Shown one piece after another: positions 24,326 through 44,081 of a stretch of DNA of 64,000 nt; the stretch's first letter is position 1; each line of letters opens with the position of its first letter. The notes under the pieces were generated by a model. It did not search any database. It was not told the origin of the DNA and saw nothing but the letters and a program-made list of their open reading frames with translations. The translations under genes and the position numbers were made by a program. Origin of the DNA: Meloidogyne chitwoodi (lineage: Eukaryota > Nematoda > Chromadorea > Rhabditida > Meloidogynidae); contig JACZZP010000015.1 of NCBI GenBank assembly GCA_015183035.1, positions 248,001 to 312,000 of the forward strand, given 5' to 3'.

Positions 24326-24615
24326 TTTAATTTTTATATTATTAATAAAATTATTACCAATAATATCTTATACATTCAATTAGATGGAAAAACAAAATTA
24401 TAATATTAATCCTTTTCCCATTGTGAATAAAAATCGGCCAAATGGTTAGAATAAAAGTAAACTTGATAAAATCTTTAAAAAATAATGTTGTACAAAAAAT
24501 TGGGCAGTTTAACATTAGAATAAATGTGTAAATAATTATCATTTAATAATTTATTGTGCTTAAAAATGATTTTTTTTTTTGAATTTATTAATTATTAGAT
24601 TTAAAAATATTAAAA

Positions 24616-25352
24616 ATGAATAATTCTGAAATATTATCAGCTACAAACATTCCTTGGGTTATAGTTAATAACTGTAAATGTTTAAACAATGGCATTTGTA
24701 TGAGACCTTCAATTTACAAGTCTCCAGTTGAATGTGTAAATTTAAAATATTCTAATGATCTACTAAAATATTTAATTGAAGAACCTGAAAATAAAAATTT
24801 TTTAGAGATTAATGTTATGATAATCTTATTTTTAGTATTTATGAATTTGATTATACAGGTATAATTTTTTAAAATTATTATTTAAAAATTTTTTAGTTGA
24901 TTATTATGTATTCTTTTAAAAATTGGTCAAAAAAGAAAGAATATATTGTAAATCCAAAAGGTTCTAAAATATTTAAAAATAATGAAAGTAAAAATAAAAA
25001 AATTGAATTAAAAGAACTAGTTATTGATTGTAGAAAAAAAAATATCAATGGTATTTATTTTAATTATATTCTGTAAAAATCAAATTAAAATTTTTTTAAT
25101 ATATTTAAAATGTTTAATTAATTATAAAAAATAATTATTTATTAAATAGCTCCATACAATTGTGGAACGTTAAACAAATATTCACCAATTATCAAGGGTA
25201 TAGTTTAATTATAATTTAAAATATTATTATTAAAAAAAAGAATAATTTTATAAAAAAAAGATAAATCATTATTAAAAAATATTATTTGAAATATTATTTG
25301 AATTTTACTTATAAATTTAGAATCAATTAAAAATGAAGCAGAAAAGATTTAA
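24616..25352 (+). CDS. Small Polinton membrane protein with EGF-like cysteine cluster
   Basis: Four exons join in phase: 24616-24858, 24897-25050, 25150-25197, 25321-25352 (158 codons). Near residue 20 is NCKCLNNGICM, a C-x-C-x4-G-x-C pattern typical of the end of EGF domains, then a further Cys. A hydrophobic membrane segment follows (INVMIILFLVFMNLIIQLII), then a Lys-rich tail. The first residues are not strongly hydrophobic, so a single-pass protein with the Cys part outside is a guess. It is the leftmost gene of the element, on the polB strand. I do not recognise a family. Confidence 0.55.
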
Positions 25353-25804
25353 TTAAAAGAATTAAAGAATTTAGAATTAAAGAATGAACATTTATTTTGA
25401 TAAAACATAAAAAATATTATTTTATTATTATAAATAAATAAATAATTAATTAATTAATTTTGGCATTTTGGTTTATAAATAAATAATAAGAGAAATTTTG
25501 ATTAAAAGTTTTAAATAGTGTGGTTTTATAATTATTAATGAGAAAATTAGAAAATTATAAAGTTCAGTAATAAAAAAATGTTAAGATTAAGTAAAGTCAA
25601 CTAAACTTACCAAAATATATTAATATATTTTGATAGTTCATTATCATCTAAAATTTCTATATTTTTACTCTTTATTATACTTTTTTTCCCTTATTCTTTA
25701 TTTTAATACAATGACGGCAATATCCATAGTCAGTTTTATAAGGGCAATTATTTTGTACTTTAGGAGTGTCTTAAATTATAATTTAAATTAAGAATTCTTG
25801 GAAT

Positions 25805-25923
25805 TAGAGACCGGACTGGATTTTTACTGGACCTGGATTTTTCCTTGACTCCAGATACAGAATCTGGTCCAGGTCAATAAAATAAATCAAAATCCAGATT
25901 AAGGAGTAAAATTCCGATCTCTA
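25805..25923. mobile_element. hAT-like miniature element inside the Polinton, TSD CTTGGAAT
   Basis: A 119-bp insert with ends TAGAGACCGGACTGG / complement of GTAGAGATCGGA and a perfect TSD CTTGGAAT (25797-25804, 25924-25931). The interior repeats CCAGAT/GGTCCAGG words. Related to the elements at 31064-31266 and 43633-43714. It inserted after the Polinton did, or travelled with it. Confidence 0.85.
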
Positions 25924-25942
25924 CTTGGAATTATATAAATTT

Positions 25943-26352
25943 TTAACCTGTGATTGACATCTTATCATTTTGTGCAAAAAAATTATCAATTGTTATTTCA
26001 CCATCAACATTTTTTCGTAAACGTTTTGGAGCAGGTGGAGGTGTTTTAGGCTCAGTTTTATTTCCTTCCTGTAAGATTAGTATTTATTTTGTTTTAAAAT
26101 TTAGTTACCACAAATCCTAAGAAAATTATTGAAGGAGTCGTCTTTGGTGATGCAACATTCTTCTATAAAAATTTTTTTTAAAAAAAAAGAATTTTATACT
26201 ACCAAAATCTCAAGAAAAATTATATCACTATCTTCGCATGAAGCGAATTTCATAGATCGAGGAATAGAAGGTGCACGTGTTTTAAAAATATTTAAGTCAT
26301 AATTTTTTGTATGGTTAAAATTAGTGTTTTTTGGAACAGAGTATGAATGCAT
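25943..26352 (-). CDS. Small Polinton protein, Pro- and Lys-rich, unknown
   Basis: Three minus-strand exons join in phase: 26203-26352, 26109-26162, 25943-26068, giving 109 residues. It starts MHSYSVPKNTNFNH, has TEPKTPPPAPKRLRKN in the third exon and ends NFFAQNDKMSITG. The proline-basic patch could be a nuclear-localisation or docking motif (inference). It lies in the left accessory zone, opposite in strand to its neighbours. No family recognised. Confidence 0.5.
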
Positions 26353-26810
26353 TTTTAAAATAAAAATTTTTGGAAAAAAGTGATGTTAAGTATAACAAAA
26401 GTATAAAAACGAAAAAGACTTGTATAAATTCTATAAACCTCCCACATAGTAACAATACAGAAGTTCAAAGAAAGTGACCCATATATTCATCCTTTAATTA
26501 AACTTTTTTTTTGCATTTTATTAAGAGTTCAAACGAATCCTCTTTTTATTTTTGCGACAAAATTTATTTTACAGTTTCTTCAATTCTTTTTCTTCCATCC
26601 ATCCTCTCCACTGTTTATGAGCAGCACCTTTTAGATTTTCACTTTTGGTGGTTTTTATATTTTAAATAGAGAAAAGTTACCATAATAAAAAAATAAAATA
26701 TAAATAAAAATTAATCGAAGGAGATATTTGCATTTACTTAAAATGGATATTAAAAAATTTTTAATTAATAATATTTTGCAATTTTATAAATATTAAAAAT
26801 ATATGTCTCT
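26353..26810. other. Spacer left of polB with a short coding-like patch
   Basis: Mostly AT-rich. On the minus strand about 26573-26665 reads KTTKSENLKGAAHKQWRGW then MEEKELKKL before a stop, more complex than the surroundings, and could be an exon of an unrecognised small gene. No start or splice partner could be fixed. Confidence 0.25.
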
Positions 26811-27715
26811 CTCTCAATCTTCTCATCAATTATATTCTAAAATTTCGGAAAAGAATATTTGACTAAGTTTAAAAAAATTTTTGAAATTTCTTTTAAATCA
26901 ATTATGCTGTAAATTAACTATAAAGTACAATAAAATTAATTTTCAGAAAAAGTGATGAACAAAAGACTCATTCAAATAAAAGTGAACTTCGAGAGCTATC
27001 AGCTATTGAAAGAGAAAATCTCTCGATTTAATTTTTATATATTTTTGAGGTTTAGACTATCATTCATCTATGTTATACTCGGGAAAGAATAATTGAATCT
27101 TTATCATATTTAAAAAATTTAAAAATTAATTAACCCATAAATTTTAATAATTTTCATAAAATATTTTTTAAATTTATTAATAATAATTTTAAATTTATAT
27201 TAAATAAAGATTTAAATATTTTAATTAAATTGAACCAAGCGTGAAAAGATACCGTTTCTTTTCTCAATCTTCTCATCAATTATATTGTAAAATTTCGGAA
27301 AAGAATATTTGACTAAGCTTAAAAAATTTTTTGAATTCTCTTTTAAATCAATTATGTTGTAAAATGAACTATAAAGTATAGTAAAATTAATTTTCAGAAA
27401 AAGCGATGAACTAAAAGACTCATTCAAATAAAAGTGAACTTCGAGAGCTATCAGCTATTGATGAGAAAATCTCTCGATTTAATTTTTATATATTTTTGAG
27501 GTTTAGACTATCATTCATCTATGTTATACTCGGGAAAGAATAATTAAATCTTTATCATTTTTAAAAAATTTAAAAATTAATTCACCCATAAATTTTAATA
27601 ATTTTCATAAAATTTTTTTTAAATTTATTAATAATTATTTTAAATTTATAATATTAAATAAAAGATTAAATATATTAATTAAATGGAACCAAGACTGAAA
27701 AGACACCGTTTCTTT
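26811..27715 (+). repeat. 450-bp direct duplication covering the polB upstream region and start
   Basis: The segment from about 26811 (CTCAATCTTCTCATCAATTA) to about 27260 recurs from about 27261 to 27715, with shared blocks such as AAAATTTCGGAAAAGAATAT and GGTTTAGACTATCATTCATC. The right copy carries the working start (AAATGGAACCAAGACTGAAA). The left copy has AAATTGAACCAAGCGTGAAA, with the ATG lost and a stop following. It is a tandem duplication of the polB promoter and first codons, the outer copy decayed. Confidence 0.75.
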
Positions 27716-30700
27716 ATTGAAGAATTGCTTAATGATAAACCAGAATATTTCCAGGCTGGAAGTGGAAATCAAATCTTTAGTGATCAAAACTTTGAAGAAA
27801 GTTTTGAGGATCAATCACCATCTACATCATTATCTTCTCAAATTTCACTATCGCATTATGTAAAAAAACTTGATCAAGATATTGAATTTAACAACAAATT
27901 TAAATTTATTAAAAATAGGTCTACATTCTTAATTGAAAATATTCCACCCGATTTTGAAATGTTATTAGCTGAAATATTTAAATATTGTTTTGATTCGACA
28001 ATTGATGAATGTGATGAAAGAGGACTTAAAGCTGATCGAATTGGATGTTTAATTTCTAGTGAATTATTAAATCCTGAAATATGGCTTCCTATTAGGCAAA
28101 TAAATGAAAATACAATCGATAATATTCTTAATCGTTTTACCCAAATTGCACAAAGCAAATCTAACGAGAATATTACTTTATGGGGGAAACCGTTTAATGT
28201 TACATTTACAGCTGTTTCTAGAAAAGATTTACCTAATGAAAGAAGGATTACAGGTGGTGCAAATGTTAGAAATCGTAAAAGAATGGCACCGGTGCATCAT
28301 AAGATAAATGGTCAATGTTTAATTAAGGTTAAAAAATATTAAAATAAATTTTATATAAAATAAATAATTTTAACATAAAATTATCAGCCTGATAATTTGG
28401 ATGGGCTGAATCATTGCTTATTTTATTCGCTACAAGCAACGCTTTATCACAATATAAAAGATTGGCCTCGTTGGAAATTTTATGATTATATTCATTCTCG
28501 ATTAGGTCAAAGAGGAGAATTAAAAAAACATGTAGAAAATTTAATGGCTGAAATTAATGCACCTGCTGGTCTAAATGATTATGATGCTAAAATATATGTA
28601 CCGAATGTAATTGATTATTGGAATAATATATTATATTTTGGAGAATATAAAATTAAAGTATTTATTTTTGAGGCAACTGGATTTTATAAACCAATATATA
28701 CTCATGGATCTAATGAATATAATATTTCTGTAATATTATATTTGTGTGATAATCATTTTAATGGAGTTCAACGTTCAAGTAATCTTTTTGGTGTTCCTTA
28801 TTGTCTATCTTGTGAAAGTACTTATCAGCGTGCATCAGAACATAATAAAAGCTGTAAATCAAGATGCATAAAGTGTGCAAGGATAGGGATGGCATATCCG
28901 TGCTCTTCAGAAAATGGTTTCAAAAAATACTGTTCTCTTTGTTGCAAAACATTTCACAATGGTGATTGTTATCGTTATCATCTTTTAAAGAAATTTTGTG
29001 ATAAATCTAAAGAATGTAGAAATTGTGGAGAAGTTTGGGATGTTCGTGTGAATACACGTAATAATAGAAAGGTATTAAACATATAAAAATTTATTAAAAT
29101 TTATAAGTTTAAAAAATTATTTTATATATTATTAAAATTTAGATAAGTTTATTAAATAAATTTATTTTGATAAAAATTTATGTAAATTTTTTAAAAATAT
29201 AGGGGCACGTATGTAATGAACGCTATTGTCAAAATTGTAAAGCGTTTCATAATATTAAGAGAGGGTGTTATATTCAGCAATTAAATATTAAAACACCAAA
29301 ACCATATAGAATTATATCTTTTGACACTGAAACAATGCAACATAATTATGAAGAGAATAATTAACAAAAAGAATACATCAAATTAATTTTATTGGAGTAA
29401 GAATTGCATGTCCTTGTTGTATAGAAAATAAAAAATGGATAAAAAGTTTGAAAAATGATGATATTAATTGCGAAGTTTGCGGTGAGAATAGAACTATTAC
29501 ATTTAGTCACCGAGAGTTTTACGAAACTGAAGTTGATAAAAAGGTTAAAGCAATTTGAAAATAATAAAATTAATTTAAATATTTTATTAAAATTATTAAA
29601 TATTTTAATAAATTTCAATTTTTCACTAAAATTATTAGGTTATCAGCTCTAATCCCGTTGAAAATTTTGTTCATTGGATACTTTATGAACTTCCAAAAAA
29701 TTTTAAATCATTAATATTTTCTCATAATGGAGGTCGTTTTGATATGGTACTTATTTTTCGTGAAATCTTTCGTCTAAGATTGAATCCTACTATGATAAGA
29801 AAAGTAAAAATTAAAATTTTAAAATAAAAATTTTACTTAAAAATAATTAAAATAAAAATTAAAAATAATTTTGATTAAAAATTAAAGGGTAATAAAATGT
29901 ATGAAATGAAAGTACCAAAAACATCAATCAACCCTGAAATAATTTTTCGTGATTCATTCAATCTTATGCCAATGGCTTTAGCGGCGTTAATTCCTGCATT
30001 TGGTCTTGAAGTTGATGAAAAACCATTTTTTCCATACTTGACAAATTGCCCAAATAATTATGATATTCGAATGACAACACTTCCACCTAAAGATGATTAT
30101 TTATGTGGAGGAATGAAACCTTCTAAACGTCGTGAATTTGATGCTTGGTATCAATCACATCAAAATGATTCCTTTTTTCTAAATGAAGCATTAGGTAGTT
30201 ATTGCATGAATGACGTAGATATACTAATGAGCGCACTTATTAAATTTCGCTCTGAATTTTATCAGATTTCAAAAAGAGATGGCCGAGAAGGTATAGCTTA
30301 TTCTTTATATATAATTTATTAATTTTTATTAGGTATTGATATTCTTCATGAATCTATGACCATAGCCAGTGGTTGCATGAAACATTTCAGGGCTAACCAT
30401 TTGAAGCCAGACCAGCTTGGAATAGTCCCAGAAATGGGTTATGATACTACAACCAATCAAAGCTTGTTGGCTATTAAATTTTTAAAATGGTATAGTGAAA
30501 AAAATAATATTGAGATCCAAACCTGCAATTCAATATTAGGCGAAAAAAAGTGAAATTTATATTTTTATTTAAATGAAAAAAAAAAAAGTTTTAGAATTGC
30601 AAACTATAGTCTAGACGGCTGGGTTGAAACAGAACAACTGGCAATAGAAATACACGGATGTGTTTGGCATGCGTGTCTTAAACATTATCCTGATGATAAA

Positions 30701-33049
30701 ATGATGATGCCTAATGGAAAGACAGCTGGTCATATTAGAGATTATAATTCTGAAAGAATAGAATTTATTAAATCAAGAGTGAGGAAGGTTAAAATATTTT
30801 GGGAGTGTGAAATTCATCAAATGCTGAAACGTGATCCTTTAATGAAGAAAAAGTTTGATGAATATTTAGACGAGGGCCCACTTGACATACGCTCATGTTT
30901 CTTTGGCGGTCGAACTGGCCCGATCAAATTATTATATAATGTTAAAGCTGGAGAGAAAATAAGTTATTTTGATGTTACAAGTCTCTATCCATATATAAAG
31001 TAAGATTTATATTAAAGAAAATTTGGTACTTGTATGTGATATGTATCAGGGATGCATATGGTATAGAGATAGGAATTTTGAAAAATCCTTGATATGGATT
31101 CTGGATTTTTTTTAAATCTATAGACCTGGACTGGATTCTGGATCTGGAGTCAAGGAAAAATCCAGATCCAGAAAAAAGCCAGAATTCCTAAAAAATGCCT
31201 GGATCTGGACACAGGATCCTGGAAAAATCCAATCCAGGTCTGGATCCAGATCCAGTCCTATCTCTAATATCGTATTTTAGGGGTGATTTTGTATCGTATC
31301 GTATATCGTATCGTATTTTACAGAATGATATGCATCTATGATATGTACATAATTTTTATACTAAATAGTATCACACATAAGAGTAAATTTCAATGAATAT
31401 ATTTAATTTTAATTAACTAAAAAATATATTAAAATTTATATATAAATATTTTTAATCTATTTTAATTAAAATTGGCAGTTGTACTACGAATTATCCAATA
31501 GGCCATCCTAAGGTCTTAGTTCTCAATCAAAATGTTAATTGGACGAAATCATTAGATAATCCTTATCAATTGGCTCTCCTTAAAGTCTTTGTTATACCTC
31601 CAAATAAATTGGACGTACCTGTTCTACCAATGAAAGTTGACGAAAGACTTTTGTTTCCATTGTGTTCTGCCTGCGCGTAAATTTTTTATTTGATTTTTTT
31701 TTTAAAAATTAATTTTACATTTTTTAAATAATAATATTTATAGTAAAAAATATCCAAATGGCAATATTCTGAATGATTATAGTTGCCCACATTCTGAATT
31801 AGAACGTGGATGGGTTAGCACGTGTACTTCGTTAGAACTTAATTTTGCTATAAATGAGGGCTATCGAGTTACAAAAATATACCGTGCAATTATTTATGAA
31901 AATAGTGATAAAGAATTATTCCGCAATTACATTGCGGAATTTATGAAGCAAAAAATTGAAGCTTCCGGGTTTGAAAAAGAAATTGAAGGTGATTCTTCTC
32001 TTGAACTGAAATTTATTGAAGAGTGTGAACAACGTTTTGGAATTAAAATTGATCGTTTTAATATGATGCCTAATAAAGGGAAAAGACAACTAGCAAAACT
32101 TGCTCTTAATAATCTATGTATTTTTTGAATTTAAAAATAAATTTAAAAAATTTTTAATTTTATTATTATTTTAATTAAATTTAGGGGGTAGATTCAGCCT
32201 TCGAAATGTGGGATTAGCGAAGACTTTGATTACTGATGATCCATGTGAGTTTTCAAAGTATCTGGACGATCACAAAATTGAAGTAACTGCTATGGATTCT
32301 TTAACACCTGAGTCTAGTCTGATTAGTTATCTTGAGAAAAAAGAATTTGTAGAAGAACACGACTGCAGTAATATAGGTGTTTAAATTAAAATTGAATATT
32401 TAAACAATCTTATTAAAAATAAAATAATAAACTTAAAAATATTTATTTAATTTAAATAGTTATTTCTTTATGGACAACTTCCGCAGCTCGCCTCCATTTG
32501 CTAAAAGCCATGCAAAAAGTAGCTAGAACTCCCAATTGTTCTTTACTTTATACAGGTAAATTTTTAAAATAATTTTATTATCTATATAATAATATTTAAG
32601 ATACAGACTCAATTATATTTGTTCATCCTGAGAATAATTGTCCGCTTCAGCTGGGTCTTTTTCTTGGTGATATGACAGACGAATACCCAGATTTTGAAAT
32701 TATTGAATTTATTAGTGGCGGATGTAAACAGTACGCCTTAAAATTACAAAAGAAAAGCGACAGAACCAAATACGAATATATTTTAAAAGTTAGAGGCATG
32801 ACGCTGAGTCATGACGTGATTGAGAATCAAGGACTTTGTTATGACAACTTTAAGGATCGTGTTGTTAACTATGTGAAGGAAGGTGATCTTGATCCTATCA
32901 TAGTTAATTATCCTAATTTTATACGTCCATCAATACCTAAAGGTTCTGTAAACTCTGTTCCCATGCAAAAAGTATATAAACCTTATATTGGTAAGGGTAT
33001 TGTTTCATCAGTTGATTTTAATGTACATGATTTTGGTTTTATTAGATAA
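27683..33049 (+). CDS. Polinton family-B DNA polymerase, 12 exons, one apparent frameshift
   Basis: Replicates the element; protein-primed B-family polymerase by family knowledge. Exons: 27683-28327, 28388-29071, 29203-29543, 29639-29803, 29888-30290, 30333-30549, 30595-30999, 31479-31676, 31744-32117, 32185-32376, 32460-32555, 32601-33049, about 1390 codons. Exon 2 begins PDNLDGLNHCLFYSLQ and ends in Cys/His pairs (CRNCGEVW, continued by CNERYCQNC). Exonuclease motifs: ISFDTETMQ (exon 3) and SHNGGRFDM (exon 4). Polymerase motif A is FDVTSLYPYI (exon 7), motif B lies in NKGKRQLAKLALNNLWG (exons 9/10), motif C is YTDTDSIIF (exons 11/12). All other junctions keep phase, but exon 3 needs one extra base near 29357-29375 to stay open: a real lesion or a sequence error. 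Confidence 0.93.
31047..31340. mobile_element. Outer hAT-like element in polB intron 7
   Basis: Ends CAGGGATGCATATG / CATATCATTCTG-side complement CATAGATGCATATCA, with 7-of-8 TSD (31039-31046 ATATGTAT; 31341-31348 ATATGTAC). Its right arm is a TATCGTATCG array. Split by the element at 31064-31266. Confidence 0.7.
31064..31266. mobile_element. Inner hAT-like element in polB intron 7
   Basis: A 203-bp insert with ends TAGAGATAGGAATTTT / complement of TAGAGATAGGACTGGA and 7-of-8 TSD (31056-31063 ATATGGTA; 31267-31274 ATATCGTA). The interior is CTGGATCTGGA / TCCAGATCCAG words, as in 25805-25923. Confidence 0.75.
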
Positions 33050-33554
33050 TATTTTTTCTATTTTATTTGTAAAAATTTATTTTATTTAATGAATAAAATT
33101 CTTTATATAAAGATGAAATTCATAAAAAATTAATTTATAGAAGTGATTAGTTTTAGGTGAAAATAATCATAATTAGTCAATAGAAGATAAAATATTGTAA
33201 AATTTAATATAAAGAAGAAAAATTTTAGGATTAATAATAATATTAATTTAACGTGTAAAATTCATTAAAAAAGCGCATTATATTTTTTCTCGTTACCTTA
33301 ATTTATTCAAAAATTGTATTATTTTAAGTTTAAATAAGTATTACAATTTATATTAAATAAATTTTAAAATTAAATAAATTAATTATTAAAAGTTTACTAA
33401 ATAATCAAGAAAAATTATAAAAATTATTTTAAAAATAATAGGGTTAAAAATTATTACAATTTAAATAAAATAAATTTTAAAATTAAATAAATAAATTATA
33501 AAAGTTTACTAAATAATCAAGAAAAATTATAAAAATTATTTTAAAAATAAATTA
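33050..33554. repeat. Convergent 3' spacer with a 105-bp tandem duplication
   Basis: AT-rich gap between the convergent polB and PAZ genes. Bases about 33340-33440 are repeated at about 33452-33552 (shared AAAAGTTTACTAAATAATCA and AGAAAAATTATAAAAATTAT). No gene. It probably holds both 3' UTRs. Confidence 0.6.
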
Positions 33555-34037
33555 TCACCAAAACTGTGCATACGAGCTCTGACTATTTTCACAGCGTGCA
33601 CGTGCAAAAGATTCAAATTCTTGATCATCTTTTTCTTCCTCCTTACAACTAATATTTAAAGGTTTATCATAATCTTCATCGCTGCTAAGGACTTTAGCAA
33701 AGGAGTCAATCCAGCTTATACGTGAATTATTTTCCTCAATCAGTTCCAATAATTCAAGAGGAAAAAATCGATCTTCTGCACCTATCTTCTTATCACTAAA
33801 TTTTTCAATAATACAATGTGTATAAGGTTGATGAAGCTTAATATGATGACGAGAATAAAAATGTGCTGTTACACTAATATTAAACGGTTTTGGTAATCGA
33901 CCATAAGCATTAGTTTTATCAGCCCCAAATTCACTGATTCCCCCAAAAACAAAAGTTTTATTAAAACCATTTTTGTCTTTATAAATTGTACGTAAATGAC
34001 GTCCTTTAAGTTGTTCAATTATTCGTTCCCTATCCAA
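33555..34037 (-). CDS. PAZ-domain protein (Argonaute L1-PAZ-like, no PIWI)
   Basis: The sequence reads like the PAZ domain of eukaryotic Argonautes: an LKGRHLRTIY strand, FVFGGISEFGA, then the hallmark block FNISVTAHFYSRHHIKLHQP and YTHCIIEKF, and FFPLELLELIEE matching the usual LP(L/M)E(L/V)C motif with Cys replaced by Leu. An acidic tail (KEEEKDDQEFESFARARC) and the stop follow; PIWI, MID and N domains are absent. The frame stays open upstream to about 34130 with VLLIECARILNCHPSKLRD, like the Argonaute L1 linker, but has no ATG, so a non-ATG start or an unseen 5' exon is needed. PAZ domains bind small-RNA 3' ends. A captured host gene is inferred. Confidence 0.72.
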   Translation of the reverse strand: MDRERIIEQLKGRHLRTIYKDKNGFNKTFVFGGISEFGADKTNAYGRLPKPFNISVTAHFYSRHHIKLHQPYTHCIIEKFSDKKIGAEDRFFPLELLELIEENNSRISWIDSFAKVLSSDEDYDKPLNISCKEEEKDDQEFESFARARCENSQSSYAQFW

Positions 34038-34306
34038 AGGATGATTTAATCGATCTCGAAGTTTGGATGGATGACAATTTAAAATTCTAGCACATTCAAT
34101 CAGAAGAACAATTTTAAAAAAAAGTATAAATTACTTATGAAATGATTTAAGATAATTAATGGATTTACGATTTTAATGGGCGGGATTTGATAAAATTATT
34201 TTTATTTATAGCAGATCCTTCAATAGTTACGCCCACTTTATGATCTATCGAGTAAACCTAGTTTATTCTTAAAATCATTTGATCTTAATTTAATAAAAAT
34301 TCCATT

Positions 34307-34703
34307 ATGCCCCGAAAAAACTCTTCAGTTCAAGAGATGAAGGAAGTTAATTTATTTGAAAATGTTAGCATTGATCCAATCACTACACAGGAACATAAGG
34401 ATCAATGTGAAGAAAAGAAGGGATCAAATACCAAAAAAGAATATCTTTGGAAGCTAGTTAGATGCAAATACTTGTTAACTTTTCAAATTTGCTCGGGTAT
34501 ATATTGAAAAAATGTAAATATAAATTTTAAATTAAGAGTGTCAGAATCGATTATTCTATGCTGAGGACAAGTTTAAACGGACTTCTAACGGTGTTACAGT
34601 CAAGCTTGAACTTTGTAATAAATGTATAGAAACAAATTGTCGAGCATCTGATGTGTTGGCACCGCTTAAACAAACTGGGACAAAACGTAAATCAAATGAA
34701 TAA
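34307..34703 (+). CDS. Small Cys-rich (zinc-ribbon-like) Polinton protein
   Basis: Two exons in phase, 34307-34496 and 34537-34703, separated by a 40-bp intron; 118 residues. The start is MPRKNSSVQEM, with a polar Lys/Glu-rich first half. A Cys cluster spans the splice junction, with CSEC followed about 25 residues later by CNKC and CRA, which could bind zinc. The C-terminal tail is basic (TKRKSNE). It is divergent from the PAZ gene, so the two may share a promoter region (34038-34306). Function unknown. Confidence 0.55.
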
Positions 34704-34847
34704 ATCGAACATAAAGTATCTTATTAATATTGATTTAAAATAAATTATTTTAATTAATTTGAATAATTATCATAACTTTAAATTGATATATTAATAATCA
34801 ATAAATTTTAAAACATTTCTGTTTAATTGTATAGAAAAATAATTAAA

Positions 34848-35303
34848 TTAGGTTAACATTTTATTTACAAAATTTTTAACAAATAAATCAGTCAAATTTT
34901 GAAATTTTTCTAAGTAATTTAAATAAACATTAAAAGAATATCCAGCTGATAAAAAATATATAAAACAAATACAATGCTGTCCACAAGTGCTTGAAAATAT
35001 CGACTGGTAGGCTTTCTTGTTTGTTCTTGTCCTTGAAAAATGAAACAAAAAATTATTATATATATATGAATTAATTGGTAGTGCTAAGCTATCAAAATAA
35101 ATTACTTCCGATTCTTTTCCATAAAGATAAATTGATACCCAATGAGAGCCTTTTAATTCATGGTTATCCAAATTTACAATTATCGCCGCTGGGTATTTAA
35201 TTTGTGATGGTTTTGGCAAACGATCAGAAGGGAAGCAACCTATAAAAACTTTTGATGTCTTAGGATTTGAACTTAATATTTTTGAAATTTGATCGCTATC
35301 CAT
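34848..35303 (-). CDS. Adenain-like cysteine protease (maturation protease)
   Basis: 151 residues. Catalytic residues in Ulp1/adenain order: His54 in GSHWVSIYL, Asp71 in IYFDSLA, Gln100 and Cys107 in TCGQHC. The spacing resembles adenovirus endopeptidase, which processes capsid precursors; in Polintons this protease is a standard component. It ends the minus-strand late block, and its ATG directly abuts the stop of the upstream membrane-protein gene (35304). The frame is intact. Confidence 0.92.
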   Translation of the reverse strand: MDSDQISKILSSNPKTSKVFIGCFPSDRLPKPSQIKYPAAIIVNLDNHELKGSHWVSIYLYGKESEVIYFDSLALPINSYIYNNFLFHFSRTRTNKKAYQSIFSSTCGQHCICFIYFLSAGYSFNVYLNYLEKFQNLTDLFVKNFVNKMLT

Positions 35304-35657
35304 TTAAACTTGTTGTTGTAATTGATGGTTAGGAAATATAGCCTTGAGTTTAAACCATAAAATTGAACGAATTTGATAAATTATAAGACTTATTATCATC
35401 AAAATATATATTATAAGCATCACCCAACAATAAATATATTCAAAGTTATTTCTTGGTTCCGTGCAAAGGCTAAGTGATGGAAATTGAGGGATAATAACTT
35501 GAGTCTGTTTATCCGCATTTGTTAAGTATCTTTGACTTGATATATTTTGACGAATATACTCAGAATATTCGGGTAAATCATGATGTCTTATTTTAATATT
35601 GTGAGATATGACATTAAATAATAAAATATTTATTAAAATAAATAATATTAACAACAT
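35304..35657 (-). CDS. Small two-segment membrane protein of the late block
   Basis: 117 residues. An N-terminal hydrophobic stretch (MLLILFILINILLFNVIS) looks like a signal peptide or anchor, and a second, long membrane segment lies at about residues 77-96 (YCWVMLIIYILMIISLIIY), followed by a basic cytoplasmic-type tail. The middle is polar with a single Cys. It lies between the protease and major capsid genes. A virion membrane or entry-associated protein is conceivable but not shown. Confidence 0.6.
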   Translation of the reverse strand: MLLILFILINILLFNVISHNIKIRHHDLPEYSEYIRQNISSQRYLTNADKQTQVIIPQFPSLSLCTEPRNNFEYIYCWVMLIIYILMIISLIIYQIRSILWFKLKAIFPNHQLQQQV

Positions 35658-35724
35658 TTTAAATTGAAAATAATTTTAAATTTTTTAAATAAATGAAATA
35701 TAAAAATATGAAAATATTTATATA

Positions 35725-37050
35725 TTAAACTGTAAGATCACTAGAAATTGTTCTATTTTTATCAAGCATAATTAGAGAATCTGCTTCACCCATAACTATT
35801 AACATCACTCCTCCTTCTGGAACAGGATTATTAAATTTGATACTTACTGCTGTTGTCCCATTTCTTATAAGGTCAAATAGACCACCATGATCCTCACCAC
35901 TGTTTGTCATATTAAAGATATACACACAATGCGTATTTAAAAATTGTGGTAGAGTAATCCCATTACTTTCAGCTGAATTGTTAAAACCAACAGCTTCATT
36001 CATATCATTAAAAGCTCGTACATATCTACCTTTAGGATAATCAAAATCGTAAGGAGCCTGAGGATAATTTCGACCATTGGCTATAATACTAATGTCTCTA
36101 ACATTAAAAGGTTGAAAGTTGAATGGACTTCTTTTTAATGTTCCTACATAGTCGGTATTCGAAACTAATCCAAGTGTTATTCGACGAGGAATCTGATCCA
36201 TAAAGAGATTAGCATTAAATTCATATCGTCCTGGACTGATGAAGAGTGATTTCATCATCGATTTTCTAATTGCATAACGAGCTGGGTTTGATTCCAGTTT
36301 TCTAGCAATATCCAAAGCCAAGCCATCCATTAGATCAACCTTTTTTATGTAAAGTTTACAACTTTGTATTTCTAATAAATAACGTGTTGCTTGTTGACCA
36401 GCTACTTGATCAGGAGCAATTAGAACAAAATTACTATCATTAGGTGTTATTTCAATGTCCATCTCACAATGATTAATTAGATAGAGGGGTTGGTTAAAAA
36501 GATCTGCATCAATTTTAGTAATAAATTGAGCAGTTTTACTTGAATCAAATAATGCTCTTCTTGTTTCAAATCCAACTCCTTCTTCTAACTTTAACTCTGT
36601 ATCCAGATAATATCCAGCAGAATTCAAATGTGAATTTTTAGCTGTTATAGGATATGAAAATTCATGTGAAAGGTAAGTTTTATAAGCATAAAGGGAGTTT
36701 GAATTAAAAATTTCCCTTCCATTAATAGATATGCGCATATTATTGATAAATGTAAGTCCAGGCATCTGAATAATTGATACATTTTCTCCTGCATTTAGAT
36801 TGACTAGTTGACCATTCGCTCCTTCCTTTCGTATACGAAATTCAGTAAAAATATAACATTTTGAAATATCAATGAAATTTTGACTTGAATGTATTTTAAA
36901 ATGATATGGGGTGTCCGTGAGTGGATTGCTTGTTAATATTTCAAATACTTTGGCTGAAGAAATGCTTACATTTGTTGGAGGTATTTGGAAAAAATCAAGA
37001 GCATTTGTAATAGAATTTATACTATCGTTATCAATTTTATTGAATGTCAT
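35725..37050 (-). CDS. Major capsid protein (double jelly-roll type)
   Basis: 441 residues, intact. Features fit the nematode Polinton major capsid protein: an early KIHSSQNFIDISKCYIFTEF strand, a GLTFINNMRISINGREIFN block followed by YAYKTYLSHEFSYP, a central LLEIQSCKLYIKKVDL, then RYAIRKSMMKSLFISPG and FNFQPFNVRDISIIANGRNY, and a glycine-rich end (VPEGGVMLIVMGEADSLIML). By family knowledge it would form the icosahedral shell. The assignment rests on this pattern and position, not on a search. Confidence 0.85.
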   Translation of the reverse strand: MTFNKIDNDSINSITNALDFFQIPPTNVSISSAKVFEILTSNPLTDTPYHFKIHSSQNFIDISKCYIFTEFRIRKEGANGQLVNLNAGENVSIIQMPGLTFINNMRISINGREIFNSNSLYAYKTYLSHEFSYPITAKNSHLNSAGYYLDTELKLEEGVGFETRRALFDSSKTAQFITKIDADLFNQPLYLINHCEMDIEITPNDSNFVLIAPDQVAGQQATRYLLEIQSCKLYIKKVDLMDGLALDIARKLESNPARYAIRKSMMKSLFISPGRYEFNANLFMDQIPRRITLGLVSNTDYVGTLKRSPFNFQPFNVRDISIIANGRNYPQAPYDFDYPKGRYVRAFNDMNEAVGFNNSAESNGITLPQFLNTHCVYIFNMTNSGEDHGGLFDLIRNGTTAVSIKFNNPVPEGGVMLIVMGEADSLIMLDKNRTISSDLTV

Positions 37051-37074
37051 TTTTTATAAAAAATTTTTATAATT

Positions 37075-37572
37075 TTAATAAAGACCAAATGCGTCTGATC
37101 TAATTCGTTTTTTAATAGTAAATGGTTTTTTAATTTTTCCAATAATGGTATGATGTGAATTAATAGATGATTTTCGTCCTCTTTTTATACTTTTCTTTCC
37201 TGTCCCAAATTGTTTAGGTAAGCCACCCTTCTCAAGGATTGTATCAATTCCACGCTTGCCTTCACTCGTAAAAGCTTTTTTTAAACTCTCGCCTTGATCT
37301 ACTTTGTCAAGGACTCGCTGTCCTGTATTTAGGGCTTCCTGTGTTACTGATGTTCCGACACGTCGCATAATTGGAAGGAAAAAACGCCAAAGACCTTTGA
37401 ATACGTCTCCTACCCCAGCACCACTCTGTACGCCATAACCTCTCTGATAAGGCGATAATCCTCGAAAGTATGTATATTCACCTATTTGTGGCTGGCCGTT
37501 AAAATTTCCTCCTGTTTGTAAATAAAAATCGTCATAGACAACGTTTCTAGTATCAAATAAAGAATGCACCAT
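37075..37572 (-). CDS. Small minor virion protein, pVI/pX-like
   Basis: 165 residues. A Gly-rich first part (GYGVQSGAGVGDVFKGLW) leads into an amphipathic helix (RFFLPIMRRVGTSVTQEALN), then a very basic C terminus (KKSIKRGRKS, IKKRIRS). This organisation resembles the membrane-active, protease-processed minor proteins found beside capsid genes in Polintons and adintoviruses. The Gly-Ala-Gly region is a plausible maturation site (inference). It lies between the two capsid genes. Confidence 0.65.
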   Translation of the reverse strand: MVHSLFDTRNVVYDDFYLQTGGNFNGQPQIGEYTYFRGLSPYQRGYGVQSGAGVGDVFKGLWRFFLPIMRRVGTSVTQEALNTGQRVLDKVDQGESLKKAFTSEGKRGIDTILEKGGLPKQFGTGKKSIKRGRKSSINSHHTIIGKIKKPFTIKKRIRSDAFGLY

Positions 37573-37646
37573 TTTATAATAAATTTATCGGTTAAATTAA
37601 ATATTATCAATTAAAAATTAATATTAATGAAATATAATTATGAATA

Positions 37647-39260
37647 TTAAAAATTTATAACTTTTTTAAATATTAAAACAATTAGTACTGTTCCATAAGC
37701 AAATGGTACTAAACGACCATTATCTAATGTTCTTAATTCGATCTCAATTTCGTTGAGTTCACGTGGTAACACTTTAGAAAAAATTGGAGTATCATAAATC
37801 TTTTCATTATATTCACCAGGCATCGCACCAGAAACTGAGACAACTCTTAATAGAGAGCTCAAAGAATTTCCAATAATCACGTTCTCAGTAACACCTTTTG
37901 TATACACTGCAAAACTCGAGAACCCGCCACGTAAATCACATCCATATTTAGCAAATTCATTATTATTAACATCCAAAGGGTTTTCAAAGCCAAGTACATA
38001 CCCAAGCTGTGGAGAGAATGCAATTTTATTAATACTAGTGTGTGAGAAAGTGAGTATAAAACGTTCAAAATCTGTGTCGTATTTAAACTCAATCGAATTA
38101 ATTATATTTTTAAGAAAAATTCGATCCTCTTTATGAATTTTACGTTGTTTCTTCAAAAAAAATTTTGAAGTTTTATTTGGATCGCGAATACTATCAATAT
38201 CACTTTGTATATCTAAAATTTCATCATTTTCCTCATCTATGTATTCATTTTTTAATTTATCTTTTTTACTATATTTATTGATAAGACCTGGCATTAATGG
38301 AAAATAATTTTCCCTTTGTATTTGTGTCGGTATTTTTCCAAGGACACTTTTCAAGATATTTTCCATTTCTTCATTCCATTCTTCTAACACTAAATTTTGC
38401 AGATAATTATCCCCAAAAATAATTCTTTCTTTATCATTTTTTTTATTTAAGGCTGTGTTACTTTCTTGATTTTTATCAGACAACTTATGAACAATTGAAG
38501 AAGACCTATCATCTTTACTCAAAGTTGAATGGTTTACTCTTGGTGGAGATTTAGACTTTTCACCAGTTGTCTCATTATCATTTTTAGTTTTTATTAAATT
38601 AGATTTATTTTCCTGTTTATTATCTGAAGATTTATGAGCATTTGAAGACGATCCATCCTTATTTATTGCTGATTGACTGTTTGTTCTAGGTGGTGAATTG
38701 ACCTTTTTTATTATTTTAGATTTACTTCCTTGATTAATATCATGCGATTGATGAGATTTGTCATCTCGAAGTAAAGATAAATTTTCTGTTTTAGGAGGTG
38801 ATGAGACCTTTTCTACTGATGTTTTTTTCTTTTTAATTAATTCAGATTCAAGTAGAGGAGGTGATCCTGGTAACACATTTCTCTTTCTCTTTAACCCTGG
38901 TGGGGAAATTAGTGGATTTGATGTTTCAAAAAGTTTATCAATATTATCGCCTTTAAACTTTATTGCTGCATTAAGAAAATCTTTTAGTTTTTCTACAGTT
39001 TTATGTGAAGCCTTAAGTATACTCAATCGGAGAATTTTAGGCTCACTTAATTCATTGAAATAATGTATTTTAATCCATTGTTCATCTAATGTACCAATAG
39101 TAGAAGGCCACGAATAAGGGTAACTTATACTATGTAATCCACAAACCCAATTACCGTTAAAATGAAGTGGTTTGGGTAAATGGACGCGGAATTTATTTGG
39201 TCTATTTTCAGGGTAATCTGATGTATTACTAGGTAAAAATATAAAAAAACTATTTGACAT
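37647..39260 (-). CDS. Minor capsid (penton-like) protein with long low-complexity insert
   Basis: 537 residues. The N terminus (FFIFLPSNTSDYPENRPNKF, then HFNGNWVCGLHSISYPYSW) matches the opening of Polinton penton/minor capsid proteins. The C-terminal third (FSPQLGYVLGFENP, YTKGVTENVIIGNSLSSLLR, ELNEIEIELRTLDNGRLVPF) is also typical. Between about residues 125 and 280 lies a Ser/Lys/Asp-rich linker with repeated SPPRTN/SPPRVN and SDNKQE/SDKNQE phrases, probably disordered. It expands the protein well beyond a simple jelly roll. Intact frame. Confidence 0.8.
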   Translation of the reverse strand: MSNSFFIFLPSNTSDYPENRPNKFRVHLPKPLHFNGNWVCGLHSISYPYSWPSTIGTLDEQWIKIHYFNELSEPKILRLSILKASHKTVEKLKDFLNAAIKFKGDNIDKLFETSNPLISPPGLKRKRNVLPGSPPLLESELIKKKKTSVEKVSSPPKTENLSLLRDDKSHQSHDINQGSKSKIIKKVNSPPRTNSQSAINKDGSSSNAHKSSDNKQENKSNLIKTKNDNETTGEKSKSPPRVNHSTLSKDDRSSSIVHKLSDKNQESNTALNKKNDKERIIFGDNYLQNLVLEEWNEEMENILKSVLGKIPTQIQRENYFPLMPGLINKYSKKDKLKNEYIDEENDEILDIQSDIDSIRDPNKTSKFFLKKQRKIHKEDRIFLKNIINSIEFKYDTDFERFILTFSHTSINKIAFSPQLGYVLGFENPLDVNNNEFAKYGCDLRGGFSSFAVYTKGVTENVIIGNSLSSLLRVVSVSGAMPGEYNEKIYDTPIFSKVLPRELNEIEIELRTLDNGRLVPFAYGTVLIVLIFKKVINF

Positions 39261-39327
39261 ATTTATTAAAAATTTTTATAAATAAAAGGAATAAAATAAA
39301 TAAAATACAATTAAAAATTTGAGTCTT

Positions 39328-40410
39328 TTATACAAGTTGTGATTCGTGAATCCACTCTCTTTCTGGATAACCTATAAATTTTACTAAAACTTCATAAGTT
39401 CCGTCAGACCTCTTCCTCTTTTGAAATATTTTTTCAATGCGATATTCTGTTTCATTATCTTTTCTTACTCTGGCCAATTCTTCTTTGTAGAAGGATCCTT
39501 TGAAATTTTCACCTTTATCATCCTTAAGCTTATATGTTACAGGATATGGTGTCTTTTTAATTTTATTCACCTGTAATATTTCATCTCCCCAATTAGGTAA
39601 ATATCCTTTCTCAAATTGTCCCTTATCTCTGCTTAAACGAACATAATCTCCTTTGTTGAATTTAGATTTAAATTTCTTTTTAGAAAAAATTTTACCATAA
39701 ATTCTTTGCCAAACTTCTTGAGCGTTTTTAAAATTAACATCTATAGGTCTCATACCATGAACTCTAGATATAGAGTTATTTATTCCATTAATTATCTTTT
39801 CCAAAACATCTACCCAATTTAATGTCTTTTTCTGAGCGAAATATCTATAGAGACGTTGCTTTATATTTCTAATTGCACGCTCAGCAATTGAGGCTTTTAC
39901 GGTTAAATGGTTTGCTTCAAATTTTTGAATATCTTTTTTTTCAAATAAGTCTTTAAGTTGTTTATTTTTAAACTCAAGACCTTTATCTGAAAAAATTCGA
40001 TGTGGATTCATTGGCATTTTACTTAAAAGATCTTCAAATGCCTTCGTTATATCTTCACTCTTTTTACTTTTTACATGAATTGTGAAGAGACGTTTTGATA
40101 GAACATCAACTCCTACAAGAATATATCTATTACCATTATTGTGTCGCGAAAGTGATTGCATATCAGCTAAATCCACCTGAAGATCTGTCATAAATCCAGC
40201 TGCAATTGTTCTACTTCTTGGAAAGCGCACCCTTTTAGGGCGCATTAATGTATAAGTACGATGCCCCTCCAAATAATGTTCGATTACATGTCTTGGGATA
40301 TGTTTATTTATTTTCTTTGCCTCTCTCCATAAAGTATCAATACCTGAATATGCTGAAAATGACTCTGGATCGTTGTATAGTCTTTCAAGTAATTTCTTAT
40401 AATCTATCAT
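39328..40410 (-). CDS. Polinton integrase (RVE family) with chromodomain
   Basis: 360 residues. A short N-terminal region is followed by the catalytic core with Asp80 (QVDLADM), Asp142 (FSDKGLEF) and Glu177 (SIAERAIRN): D-61-D-34-E, as expected for retroviral-type integrases. The C terminus is a chromodomain (YRIEKIFQKRKRSDGTYEVL, VKFIGYPEREWIHESQ). The family inserts the element with 6-bp duplications, consistent with TCTTTG here. All catalytic residues are present. It starts just below the preceding core-like gene (stop at 40419). Confidence 0.95.
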   Translation of the reverse strand: MIDYKKLLERLYNDPESFSAYSGIDTLWREAKKINKHIPRHVIEHYLEGHRTYTLMRPKRVRFPRSRTIAAGFMTDLQVDLADMQSLSRHNNGNRYILVGVDVLSKRLFTIHVKSKKSEDITKAFEDLLSKMPMNPHRIFSDKGLEFKNKQLKDLFEKKDIQKFEANHLTVKASIAERAIRNIKQRLYRYFAQKKTLNWVDVLEKIINGINNSISRVHGMRPIDVNFKNAQEVWQRIYGKIFSKKKFKSKFNKGDYVRLSRDKGQFEKGYLPNWGDEILQVNKIKKTPYPVTYKLKDDKGENFKGSFYKEELARVRKDNETEYRIEKIFQKRKRSDGTYEVLVKFIGYPEREWIHESQLV

Positions 40411-40418
40411 TATATAAT

Positions 40419-41648
40419 TTACCAGAGACCTGGTTTAAAGCTGTTAATATCTGATAAAGTTGGTTTCTTCTTAGCCCATTTTTTTCGTTGAATTTCAAAT
40501 TTATTTGGTTTTCTTTGAGCCCATCTATCAATAAGTCTAAGTTTTCGTTTTTTCTTTGGTACCTCGCTATAGCTTTGATCAATTTCTTCAACAGGAATAT
40601 GTCTTTTTAATTTTTTAAGAGAATTGATAGATGAGCTGTTAATATCTGATAGAGTTGGCTTCTTCTTAGCCCATCTTTTTCGTTGAATTTCAAATTTATT
40701 TGGTTTTCTTTGAGCCCATCTATCAATAAGTCTAAGTTTTCGTTTTTTCTTTGGTACCTCGTTATAGATTTGATCAATTTCATCACCAGGAATATGTCTT
40801 TTTAATTTTTTACGAGAATTGTTAGATAAATGGTCCGGCTGAGAATAATCTGATTTATTGATAATTTCATTCTTTATAGATCTATTAGAGGAATAAATAG
40901 GTAAATATTTTTCTTTCCAGTTTCTAATGGTTTCTTTCCTTTTTAAATAATCTCGTTTCTTTTCTTTTTTTCTCCTAACTTTTTCTAAATATTCAATGTC
41001 TTCAATTTCTTCTTTAATTTTATTCTTTAATTCTTCAGTCTTAATTTTTCTATTTTCAGGTTTTTCTTTAATTTTATATTGTATATCTTGATTTATTTTA
41101 GCATTTTTTAATTTTCTTTTATCTTGACCCTCCTCATCATCTCTTTTTCTTTTTGAGCTACGTTTCAAAGCCAAAGAAGTCTGTGATCTCTTTTTTTTTA
41201 TTTGATCCGGAGGTGGAATCGGTGGCGATGGAGGTGGCTGCAATTTGATACTATCATGAGTTGAAAATGATGGAGGTGGTTTCGAATGATTCATGTCTTG
41301 ATTATCAAAAGAAAAATCATCACTCATCCAAAAGTTATCATCTTCATCTCCATCTTCACCACCTGATGTTATGTACGATGAAGGTCGTGAATTAGTTCTA
41401 GGTAGAAGAATGCCTTTGGATTTGTTTACAACTTCTACCTTAATTGGCTTATTTTCTTTTTCATTTCTTAGATGAAGATAACGTCTCAGCTCCTGATTAT
41501 AATTAACATTTTTGACATCATTACTTGCCTTTTTTCTTTTTGTATTATCTAATAAGTCTTTAATTGAATCAAGGTTTGGTTCATTTGTATTGGATGCCGT
41601 TAGTCCTCTGTATAATACTTCTGGTACAAGAATAAGTTTATTCGCCAT
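40419..41648 (-). CDS. Basic core-like protein with duplicated C-terminal module
   Basis: 409 residues. Starts ANKLILVPEVLYRGL, an opening also used by Polinton and adintovirus core-like proteins. An acidic GGEDGDEDD patch and a PPPSPPIPPPD stretch follow, then a long Lys/Glu/Arg-rich coiled region. The C-terminal 130 residues are two nearly identical 65-residue repeats (each KKLKRHIP..EIDQ.Y, RLIDRWAQRKPNKFEIQRK), a 195-bp tandem duplication at 40443-40835. DNA binding inside the particle is the likely role (inference). It overlaps the next upstream gene by 11 nt. Confidence 0.6.
   Translation of the reverse strand: MANKLILVPEVLYRGLTASNTNEPNLDSIKDLLDNTKRKKASNDVKNVNYNQELRRYLHLRNEKENKPIKVEVVNKSKGILLPRTNSRPSSYITSGGEDGDEDDNFWMSDDFSFDNQDMNHSKPPPSFSTHDSIKLQPPPSPPIPPPDQIKKKRSQTSLALKRSSKRKRDDEEGQDKRKLKNAKINQDIQYKIKEKPENRKIKTEELKNKIKEEIEDIEYLEKVRRKKEKKRDYLKRKETIRNWKEKYLPIYSSNRSIKNEIINKSDYSQPDHLSNNSRKKLKRHIPGDEIDQIYNEVPKKKRKLRLIDRWAQRKPNKFEIQRKRWAKKKPTLSDINSSSINSLKKLKRHIPVEEIDQSYSEVPKKKRKLRLIDRWAQRKPNKFEIQRKKWAKKKPTLSDINSFKPGLW
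40443..40835 (-). repeat. 195-bp in-frame tandem duplication in the core-like gene
   Basis: Two head-to-tail copies (from 40443 and 40638) sharing almost every base, e.g. GTTAATATCTGATAAAGTTG against GTTAATATCTGATAGAGTTG. A recent event, given the near identity. Confidence 0.85.
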
Positions 41649-42027
41649 TAGAAGATGATTCTTTTGAATTTAATAAACTACGTCCTGCTTCTATGATAAT
41701 AGGAGTTAAAAGAGCTGCAAATATTGAACCTAAACCACTGCCTTTTTGTTTTAAAAATTTACGAGCTCCGAGTTCACTTCTTGTTCTACCTAATTTACGA
41801 ACAAAGTTTGCGTGAGGGATTAAACGTTTTTTCTGGCGAGTAGTTAATTTAAAACGAGATTTAACAATATTAATACTAATTTCAGCAATTGCAAGTAATT
41901 GTTCTCTAGTAGCTTTTTTTAATAATTTTCTCTTTTTTCTTTCTGATTTTGATGAAGCCAAGGTTTTTAAAAATTTTAAATTTTCTTTTACAAGTTGACT
42001 AATTTGTGTTTGATTATTCTGTACCAT
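41638..42027 (-). CDS. Small conserved Polinton protein, pX-like
   Basis: 129 residues. Shows the widespread small Polinton/adintovirus protein pattern: a central ATREQLLAIAEISINIVKS helix followed by LTTRQKKRLIPH, then a basic stretch (RKFLKQKG) leading to a Gly-rich hydrophobic end (GSGLGSIFAALLTPIIIEAG). By comparison with adenovirus pX/pVI it is a likely minor virion protein. It overlaps the ATPase stop region by 14 nt and the next gene by 11 nt, so the block is very compact. Confidence 0.65.
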   Translation of the reverse strand: MVQNNQTQISQLVKENLKFLKTLASSKSERKKRKLLKKATREQLLAIAEISINIVKSRFKLTTRQKKRLIPHANFVRKLGRTRSELGARKFLKQKGSGLGSIFAALLTPIIIEAGRSLLNSKESSSNGE

Positions 42028-42679
42028 TTTTTGGAATGAATATTACTTTTTCGATGTCGTCTTTAAATATGTTTGTGCGCAATCTTAATATAGGATCTGA
42101 AGAAGCGTGCATATCTATTAATAAATATCCATAAGGCTCAATAGTTGCCTGACGATAAGCGTCTAAGAAGAAATCTAATTTACGGGGAAAAAGTTGTGTT
42201 CCAATATTTCTAACACTTAAAGCTGAGTTTGGTGAACGCATAAGCACGAGATATTGTGCATTTTGCCTTGATATCTTAATTTTTTTTTCAAATAAATTTT
42301 GTGTTACAAAGACAAGTGAAAAATTTTGATGATGTGATTTCTTAGTAAATAGTTCAGATAAATATTTTTCATCAATTGAAAATAAAAGGTCGTCCAAAAT
42401 TAATAAAAGCGGCTTAGGATAACTCTTGATTAAATCCTCTGTTGGAACACCTCCATATAAATTAATACCTGATCGTTGAAGTATTGGAACGATTGAACTC
42501 ATTTCACCAAAGCAATACAGTATACTAACAGGTTTTGGCTCTATTAAATCATAAGCTTCTGAAATTAGTTTTAACAGAAAAGTACTTTTCCCTGAAGAAC
42601 TTGGTCCTGAAATAATCATTCCAAAAGGTAATTTAAATTTTAAATTTTTATTCGAAATTGAATTATTATTGCTTAACAT
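42014..42679 (-). CDS. A32-like DNA-packaging ATPase
   Basis: 221 residues. Walker A is GPSSSGKST (residues 25-33) and Walker B is LLLILDDLL (91-99, Asp96/Asp97). A polar FVTQNLF segment matches the sensor region of FtsK/HerA-type A32 ATPases. In Polintons it is thought to drive genome packaging. Intact frame, single exon. Confidence 0.93.
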   Translation of the reverse strand: MLSNNNSISNKNLKFKLPFGMIISGPSSSGKSTFLLKLISEAYDLIEPKPVSILYCFGEMSSIVPILQRSGINLYGGVPTEDLIKSYPKPLLLILDDLLFSIDEKYLSELFTKKSHHQNFSLVFVTQNLFEKKIKISRQNAQYLVLMRSPNSALSVRNIGTQLFPRKLDFFLDAYRQATIEPYGYLLIDMHASSDPILRLRTNIFKDDIEKVIFIPKNGTE

Positions 42680-42713
42680 TTTAATTGGATAATTATATAA
42701 ATTAAATAATAAA

Positions 42714-43480
42714 CTAAATTGAATTTGGATTTATGACATCTGAAAATTTTTCGAATTTTGTAGTATCAATTTTCTCTTCGAAAAATTGCTTGGTATCTGA
42801 CTCCTCATTACTAACACTTCTCTTTACAGTTTTCTTTTCAACATTACCATCATTTGATGTAGGTTTAGAGATATTCTCAAAAAAATCATTTATATCATCT
42901 TCAAATGACTTTATCTTTTTATTTTCTTCACTGTCCTCTAATTTAGGCTGTTGAGAATTATTATTACCGTCCATATTCATCTCTGAGTTAGTTATAAGCT
43001 TCATCTCCTGATCTTTTATGTTTTTGGGTTCTTGACCCATTTCAGTCTTGATTGAATAATTTGAAAGAGATTGAATCATCGGCTTTTTCTCTTTGACATC
43101 TCCTTGATCACCATGAGAAATGTTTAGAACACGGCCTTTATTCTTGATCTAATATATAAAAATCAAATTATTACCTTAAATAATCAAACCCTAAAGAAGC
43201 AGTGTCCAGGCATCTCATAAATTGTGTCAAAAGGAACAAAACGATTTCCCTTAATCCTGCTACAATAGACAGTAACTCCTTCTTTGGTAACAATAAAGTC
43301 AAGCTCGACCTCGGTAGACTTGCATTCTCGACATCGTCCACATTGATCGAATGGTAAAAAACGAGGAGTAGTAAGCCGAGGATTCGCTTGAATAGTAATA
43401 CCATTAGTATTAATGCTGAACTCAATTTCGGGGAGTATTACTTCAGCAATACATCGTTTATCACACATATTGAGAGCCAT
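42714..43480 (-). CDS. Two-exon Cys-rich plus acidic Polinton protein, unknown
   Basis: Exon 1 (43190-43480) and exon 2 (42714-43148) join in phase across a 41-bp intron, giving 241 residues. Exon 1 has CDKRC near the start and CGRCRECKS in the middle, a cluster that may bind zinc. Exon 2 is hydrophilic and acidic (EDSEENKKIKSFEDDINDFF). It sits at the head of the late block, upstream of the ATPase. No family recognised. This is the only gene of the late block with an intron. Confidence 0.5.
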
Positions 43481-44081
43481 TCAATTTTTTGAGATAAATT
43501 GATATTTTTACGAATGATTAATTAAAAATCGAGGATTTACTAAGTATAATAACATTACATTAGGCACCGCCCATTTATTTATAATACATTTTGACATAAA
43601 AACTTAATTGATTTATTAAAAATATTATCAATTAGAGATAGGAAAGAGATCGGGATCCGTTTCCGTTCCTGTTTCCCGATTTCCTGATCCCGGTTTTTTC
43701 AAAATTCCTCTCTGTTATCAATACAAATATATATTAATTATGAATTCTTTAGTATTAGACTATGAAAGTTTAAACTTATGATTTTTCTTTTTATCTCATA
43801 TCTATTTTGTTTTTCTTTACAGATCATTTTTCTTTAAAATTAAAAAATGCCTGCAAAATCGGCTAGAACAATAAAAATATAAATCCGTATTAAAAATATT
43901 GCTTTTAGAATTCTTTTTTTAATTTCTTTAAAAATATTTATTAATTGCCGAAAAGTCTTTGCCAACCCTATTTATCACATTCAGATTAATTTAAAATTGA
44001 AAATAAATTTAAATGACATGTTATTTATAATTTTATTATTATTAAGTTTTATAAGTTAATAATAATCAGAGCAATTTAATT
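43481..44081. other. Spacer between late block and F-box gene
   Basis: AT-rich, no gene seen. Contains the 82-bp hAT-like element at 43633-43714. Confidence 0.5.
43633..43714. mobile_element. hAT-like miniature element inside the Polinton, TSD TTATCAAT
   Basis: An 82-bp insert with ends TAGAGATAGGAAA / complement of CAGAGAGGAATTTT and a perfect TSD TTATCAAT (43625-43632, 43715-43722). The interior is GGGATCCG/TCCCGAT words. Confidence 0.8.

Follow-up and report, generated by a model that had tools for sequence, protein, structure and literature searches.

A free-standing PAZ gene recurs in Polintons of the nematode Meloidogyne chitwoodi and may act as a decoy for host small RNAs

A 64,000-nucleotide stretch of the Meloidogyne chitwoodi genome (contig JACZZP010000015.1; G000:C7:248001-312000 in our numbering of an assembly of 47.48 Mb in 30 contigs), hereafter the window, contains a Polinton (Maverick) element in which a minus-strand frame at 33555..34130 encodes a predicted Argonaute-type PAZ domain. 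We found that this PAZ gene recurs near most capsid genes of the genome, in three groups of elements, without an adjacent PIWI match, and that it is a common, selected component of these Polintons, new here. A first-pass annotation of the window had read the frame as an Argonaute-type PAZ domain without PIWI, carried by a Polinton. This observation was confirmed by a fold match and by a profile match of the gene family, as were the lack of PIWI, the Polinton setting and the recurrence in related elements. As for its function, we tentatively favor a decoy: the free-standing PAZ domain may occupy the 3′ ends of host small RNAs and so weaken the Argonaute silencing of the element.

The search for capsid genes returned 62 rows, which gave 54 places after eight rows were dropped as pieces of a place already listed. 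A PAZ row was present within 8 kb of the capsid gene at 42 of the 54 places (two of which share one gene). The places were grouped by capsid identity to that of the window, not by a tree, into a near group with 53–100% identity and distant places with 31–43%. At most places of distant lineage B (mostly 33–34%) a distance of 0.8–1.0 kb separates the PAZ gene from the capsid gene; in distant lineage C (37–38%) the distance is approximately 6 kb at three of the four places, where a P-loop frame adjoins the PAZ gene. The PAZ profile of the window's family (family A) matched that of lineage B with a probability of 96.4 and an E-value of 1e-9. Many lineage-B copies and lineage C have an intron or gap before the motif QYFYVRH/GYYYVKH and, because it stands at the same place, shared descent of B and C is suggested by these sequences; the lineage-B frames L029-L031 do not have it. 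In a PAZ tree that included host and human rows, B and C came together (80/99, open fork) and the host rows, with very long branches, were interspersed with family A, a picture that fits one capture or several. The 53 PAZ rows considered comprise 33 family-A rows and 20 of 54 further rows (the other 34 being second pieces, family-A rows and one host row). For nine of the 53, the 25 kb on either side contained no capsid row; six of these nine adjoin polymerase or penton pieces.

Homologs in databases numbered 31 proteins for family A, 17 for lineage B and 18 for lineage C. The named sources were M. enterolobii, M. hapla, M. floridensis, M. javanica, M. graminicola and M. incognita, together with one Heterodera trifolii protein of lineage C; all named relatives of family A are from Meloidogyne, the comparison being one of protein sequences. 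Several of these proteins, from A, B and C, already bear the name ‘PAZ domain-containing protein’ in UniRef. Extrapolated from this one genome, our results suggest that many Meloidogyne entries so named are likely genes of mobile elements and not of host RNA interference.

The gene is short and, in most copies, complete. A search of the genome with the window protein yielded 33 rows, 31 of them without an internal stop. Among 22 distinct family-A frames from the fetched loci, 20 measured 173–218 residues from stop to stop, the remaining two being pieces of locus L037 (149 and 111 residues), and in 19 a methionine coincided with, or shortly preceded, the start of homology, so that these hold the whole protein. 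The frames end no more than approximately 90 residues after PAZ, in an acidic or serine-rich tail that is terminated by tryptophan in most of the first subgroup. None of the 38 rows of a genome search for PIWI (PF02171) was on C7, the contig of the window. Continuation into a full Argonaute by splicing, which the first-pass annotation had named as a refuting outcome, is ruled out by the complete frames at other loci and by the lack of a Piwi row on this contig.

In the window, the PAZ frame is open over 191 codons, with its stop codon at 33555-33557. Of the 190 residues searched, approximately residues 5-133 form the PAZ domain; beyond it lies an acidic tail, mostly of low model confidence, whose last residue is tryptophan. 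A PAZ fold was predicted for the family on the basis of one good model, which matched solved PAZ structures at 10–19% identity among the matches listed. When the PDB was searched by sequence with the window protein, no Argonaute match was obtained. The curated Pfam cut-off for the PAZ family (PF02170), 28.8 bits, was exceeded by three of eight relatives that align with the window protein (36.6, 33.4, and 33.3 bits), by one of nine homologs (29.7 bits) and by many places of the family in a search of the same genome. Judged by these scores, the PAZ profile is reached by the family, not by the window copy. Chance similarity to PAZ is ruled out by the family profile, the fold and the conservation. 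The pocket for the RNA 3′ end is formed by H271, F294, Y311, and H316 of AGO2. At the H316 position 30 of 31 aligned proteins have histidine, at the Y311 position all 31 have histidine, tyrosine or phenylalanine, and at the H271 position histidine is found in 12 of 12 proteins of lineages B and C.

To evaluate selection, we estimated ratios of nonsynonymous to synonymous changes (dN/dS) over the PAZ region by the Nei-Gojobori method; pairs without changes, with at most 90 codons, or with dS at or above 2 fell outside the printed set. The ratio was 0–0.25 in 12 of the 13 printed pairs with dS below 0.3: 0.11 for L009/L012, 0.00 for L013/L014, 0.22 for L015/L016 and 0.12 for L021/L022; 0.00, 0.00, 0.13, 0.16, and 0.16 among L025-L027; and 0.04, 0.17, and 0.25 among L034-L036. 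For the window copy against others, the printed pairs gave 0.28–0.58, with large and uncertain dS. Purifying selection on the PAZ region is thus evident in almost every recent pair of copies.

PAZ domains hold the 3′ ends of small RNAs, and from a PAZ domain without MID and PIWI neither slicing nor guided action is expected. Because of this hold on 3′ ends, a decoy or competitor is the simplest use for an element under small-RNA control. The PAZ gene would have originated from an Argonaute, and its protein, as its sequence suggests, would bind RNA 3′ ends; the predicted fold agrees with small-RNA binding. It would then grip the 3′ ends of host small RNAs or take their place, and the Argonautes would silence the element less well; such a lowering of silencing is what we infer for the PAZ protein. 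The tail is likely disordered and, in some members, a tryptophan beside glycine in an acidic tail could dock on the tryptophan pockets of Argonaute, which is the least supported step. In lineage C, tryptophan-glycine (WG) occurs in an acidic N-terminal stretch in nine of 17 rows, namely in every Meloidogyne row with an initial methionine; shuffling gave a mean of 1.16 and reached nine in 0 of 10,000 trials, although the observed count is inflated by the relatedness of the rows. The Heterodera homolog of lineage C has no WG. Many family-A proteins have tryptophan as their last residue.

A wider model is more doubtful. Polintons of root-knot and cyst nematodes might have long kept a suppressor derived from Argonaute, its PAZ domain capping small-RNA 3′ ends and its tail tryptophans docking on Argonaute. 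The setting would be an arms race between these elements and the WAGO pathway, in worms for which no PIWI-interacting RNA (piRNA) Argonaute is known. For M. incognita and M. hapla, a table in PMC5934874 contains many WAGOs but no piRNA Argonaute. A conserved protein of approximately 170–205 residues would give direct access to the control of Polintons in such worms and to the counter-measures of the elements. If the decoy reading is true, part of the host Argonaute has been turned against small-RNA silencing by an animal DNA element.

Several observations weigh against a conserved PAZ gene acting as such a decoy. The window frame contains no methionine codon, and the window protein alone scored 17.9 bits against PF02170, below the cut-off; five of the eight aligned relatives and eight of the nine homologs were also below it, one of the latter without any PAZ match. 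The 3′-end pocket is kept in part: the H271 position is tyrosine in 19 of 19 family-A proteins, and no residue aligned with F294 in any family. Because the lineage-B model was poor (pLDDT 41.7), the fold of that lineage is assigned from sequence only. At 12 of the 54 capsid places there is no own PAZ row within 8 kb. In 36 family-A tails (two tail-less rows dropped, the set thinned at 0.9 similarity and P0029-P0031 lying outside it), GW or WG occurred in eight vs. 3.6 by shuffling, a count reached in 221 of 10,000 trials. The L023/L024 pair gave a dN/dS of 1.03, owing to a frame difference in the 5′ part of L024. The rearranged L037 piece gave 0.38–0.46 against L025-L027 at dS of approximately 0.5.

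The position of the gene raises another explanation. In L009-L027, 19 of the 20 loci of 9.9 kb, the nearest PAZ copy lies 108–1863 bp from the last piece of the polymerase gene, however the capsid block is arranged; the two are on opposite strands in 17 of these loci and share a strand in the other two, L023 and L024. L025 and L027 have a second PAZ copy. In L028 and L033-L036 the neighbors are other genes, and a fixed position between polymerase and protease is ruled out. Since the PAZ gene often adjoins the polymerase, the protein could serve replication of the element DNA by binding single-stranded DNA 3′ ends or strands displaced by the polymerase, with no role in silencing. DNA also meets PAZ: binding of DNA to the PAZ domain of AGO2 is described in a passage of PMC6361761, and the title of structure 1si2, a PAZ domain match, names deoxynucleotide overhangs. 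Yet the gene has other neighbors in lineages B and C and in some family-A loci: a small open reading frame (ORF) that follows the protease, a P-loop frame, the penton gene or ORF219. The 12 capsid places without a PAZ row nearby also argue against a replication role. Polintons replicate elsewhere too, and there they are not known to have a PAZ gene. Overall, we consider replication unlikely.

Somewhat less probable still is interference by protein contact alone, with the tail tryptophan as an AGO hook and PAZ as a dominant-negative partner that does not grip RNA. It would account for the acidic N-terminal WG kept in lineage C and for the many family-A proteins that end in tryptophan, and WG/GW motifs of silencing suppressors of plant viruses are in print (in the titles of PMC11345138 and PMC6563293). 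However, shared descent inflates the WG count, the motif is missing from the Heterodera homolog, and lineage B has no comparable tail. The same structural evidence as for the decoy would fit a protein that binds small RNAs for the gain of the element, steering them to competing elements (several Polinton groups coexist in this genome) or protecting element-derived ones; with no adjacent PIWI part to use a guide, we regard this as improbable. A functionless fragment of a host Argonaute copied as a passenger is already disfavored and very improbable, since the low dN/dS of recent pairs, the L1-PAZ span kept in three groups and the complete family-A frames outweigh the missing methionine of the window copy, the frame change in L024 and the rearranged pieces of L037.

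Compared with the PAZ domains of Argonautes (PF02170; human AGO1/2, Drosophila Ago1/2), the one described here is free-standing, has no PIWI beside it, is encoded by a mobile element and differs in the F294 region. As a small accessory protein of a selfish genome predicted to act on small RNAs or on Argonaute, it resembles viral silencing suppressors (p19, 2b, WG/GW proteins), none of which, to our knowledge, is made of a PAZ domain. A comparison of the window model with viral structures in BFVD gave 452 matches at E-values up to 10 and none at 0.001, and when viral contigs were scanned once, with the family-A alignment as the only query, 31 pattern stretches came up, with no relative among them. 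No report of a PAZ gene in Polintons was found in the literature searched, most subscription papers lying outside it. With respect to the gene set of Polintons, which we take to be type-B DNA polymerase (polB), integrase, ATPase, protease, and major and minor capsid proteins, the PAZ gene is an addition.

The surrounding element, at 23964..45962 (21,999 bp), is a Polinton: matches to integrase, polB, packaging ATPase and protease lie within inverted repeats flanked by a 6-bp target duplication. Comparison of the ends placed the left repeat at 23964..24343 (plus strand) and the right one at 45586..45962 (minus strand), with outer arms (23964-24160 vs. 45766-45962, 197 nt) of 99% identity and inner arms (24195-24340 vs. 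45588-45733, 146 nt) of 91%. The duplication, TCTTTG, was read from the sequence at 23958..23963 and 45963..45968 (plus strand). The polB gene (28379..33049, plus strand) consists of at least five open pieces, one of which (31706-32125) matched DNA_pol_B_2 with 26.5 bits, above the cut-off of 25.8; two other pieces gave no match in Pfam. Both in the window and in L009-L027 the polymerase gene is broken into at least five pieces, whose borders are alike across many relatives; spliceosomal introns thus seem to be present in these Polintons, while the family-A PAZ gene is free of them.

The remaining genes are on the minus strand. The adenovirus-like cysteine protease (34848..35303) scored 18.4 bits for Peptidase_C48 and 18.1 for C5, both below cut-off, and had 47 matches in the genome. 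The putative major capsid protein (35725..37053; the 62 rows above), presumably such by size and gene order, and the putative minor capsid protein (37647..39275, an open frame), which we assume to be penton-like, had no match in Pfam. The retroviral-type integrase (39328..40434) reached 28.2 bits for rve, below the cut-off of 32.6, with 67 genome matches, and the packaging ATPase (42014..42730) scored above cut-off for Adeno_IVa2 (24.5 bits) and Pox_A32 (23.9 bits).

A short gene-like frame, divergent from the PAZ gene, was read by eye at approximately 34307-34703 on the plus strand (MPRKNSSVQEMKEV...), in the interval that separates the PAZ frame from the protease; it is interrupted, perhaps by an intron. 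Elsewhere in the genome, three similar short PAZ pieces of 32–35 bits (L049, C25:530607; L050, C11:462069; L051, C11:624827) have none of the genome's Piwi rows nearby and may be host Argonaute fragments or another capture. A second copy very near the window's element, at G000:C6:1520472-1524563, has an integrase of 100% (rounded) identity and a capsid gene truncated after its first 236 residues (98% identical), and no PAZ row lies closer to it than 25 kb; this near-identity suggests recent activity of the element. Relative to the capsid block, the polymerase-PAZ block has opposite orientations among elements (window vs. C8:600929, C27:1097986, C26:1957312, and C6:1027172), an internal inversion. 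At G000:C26:501606-507321 Polinton parts are doubled and two capsid genes face each other, and the two PAZ copies of a locus form an inverted pair in L027 and a direct one in L025.
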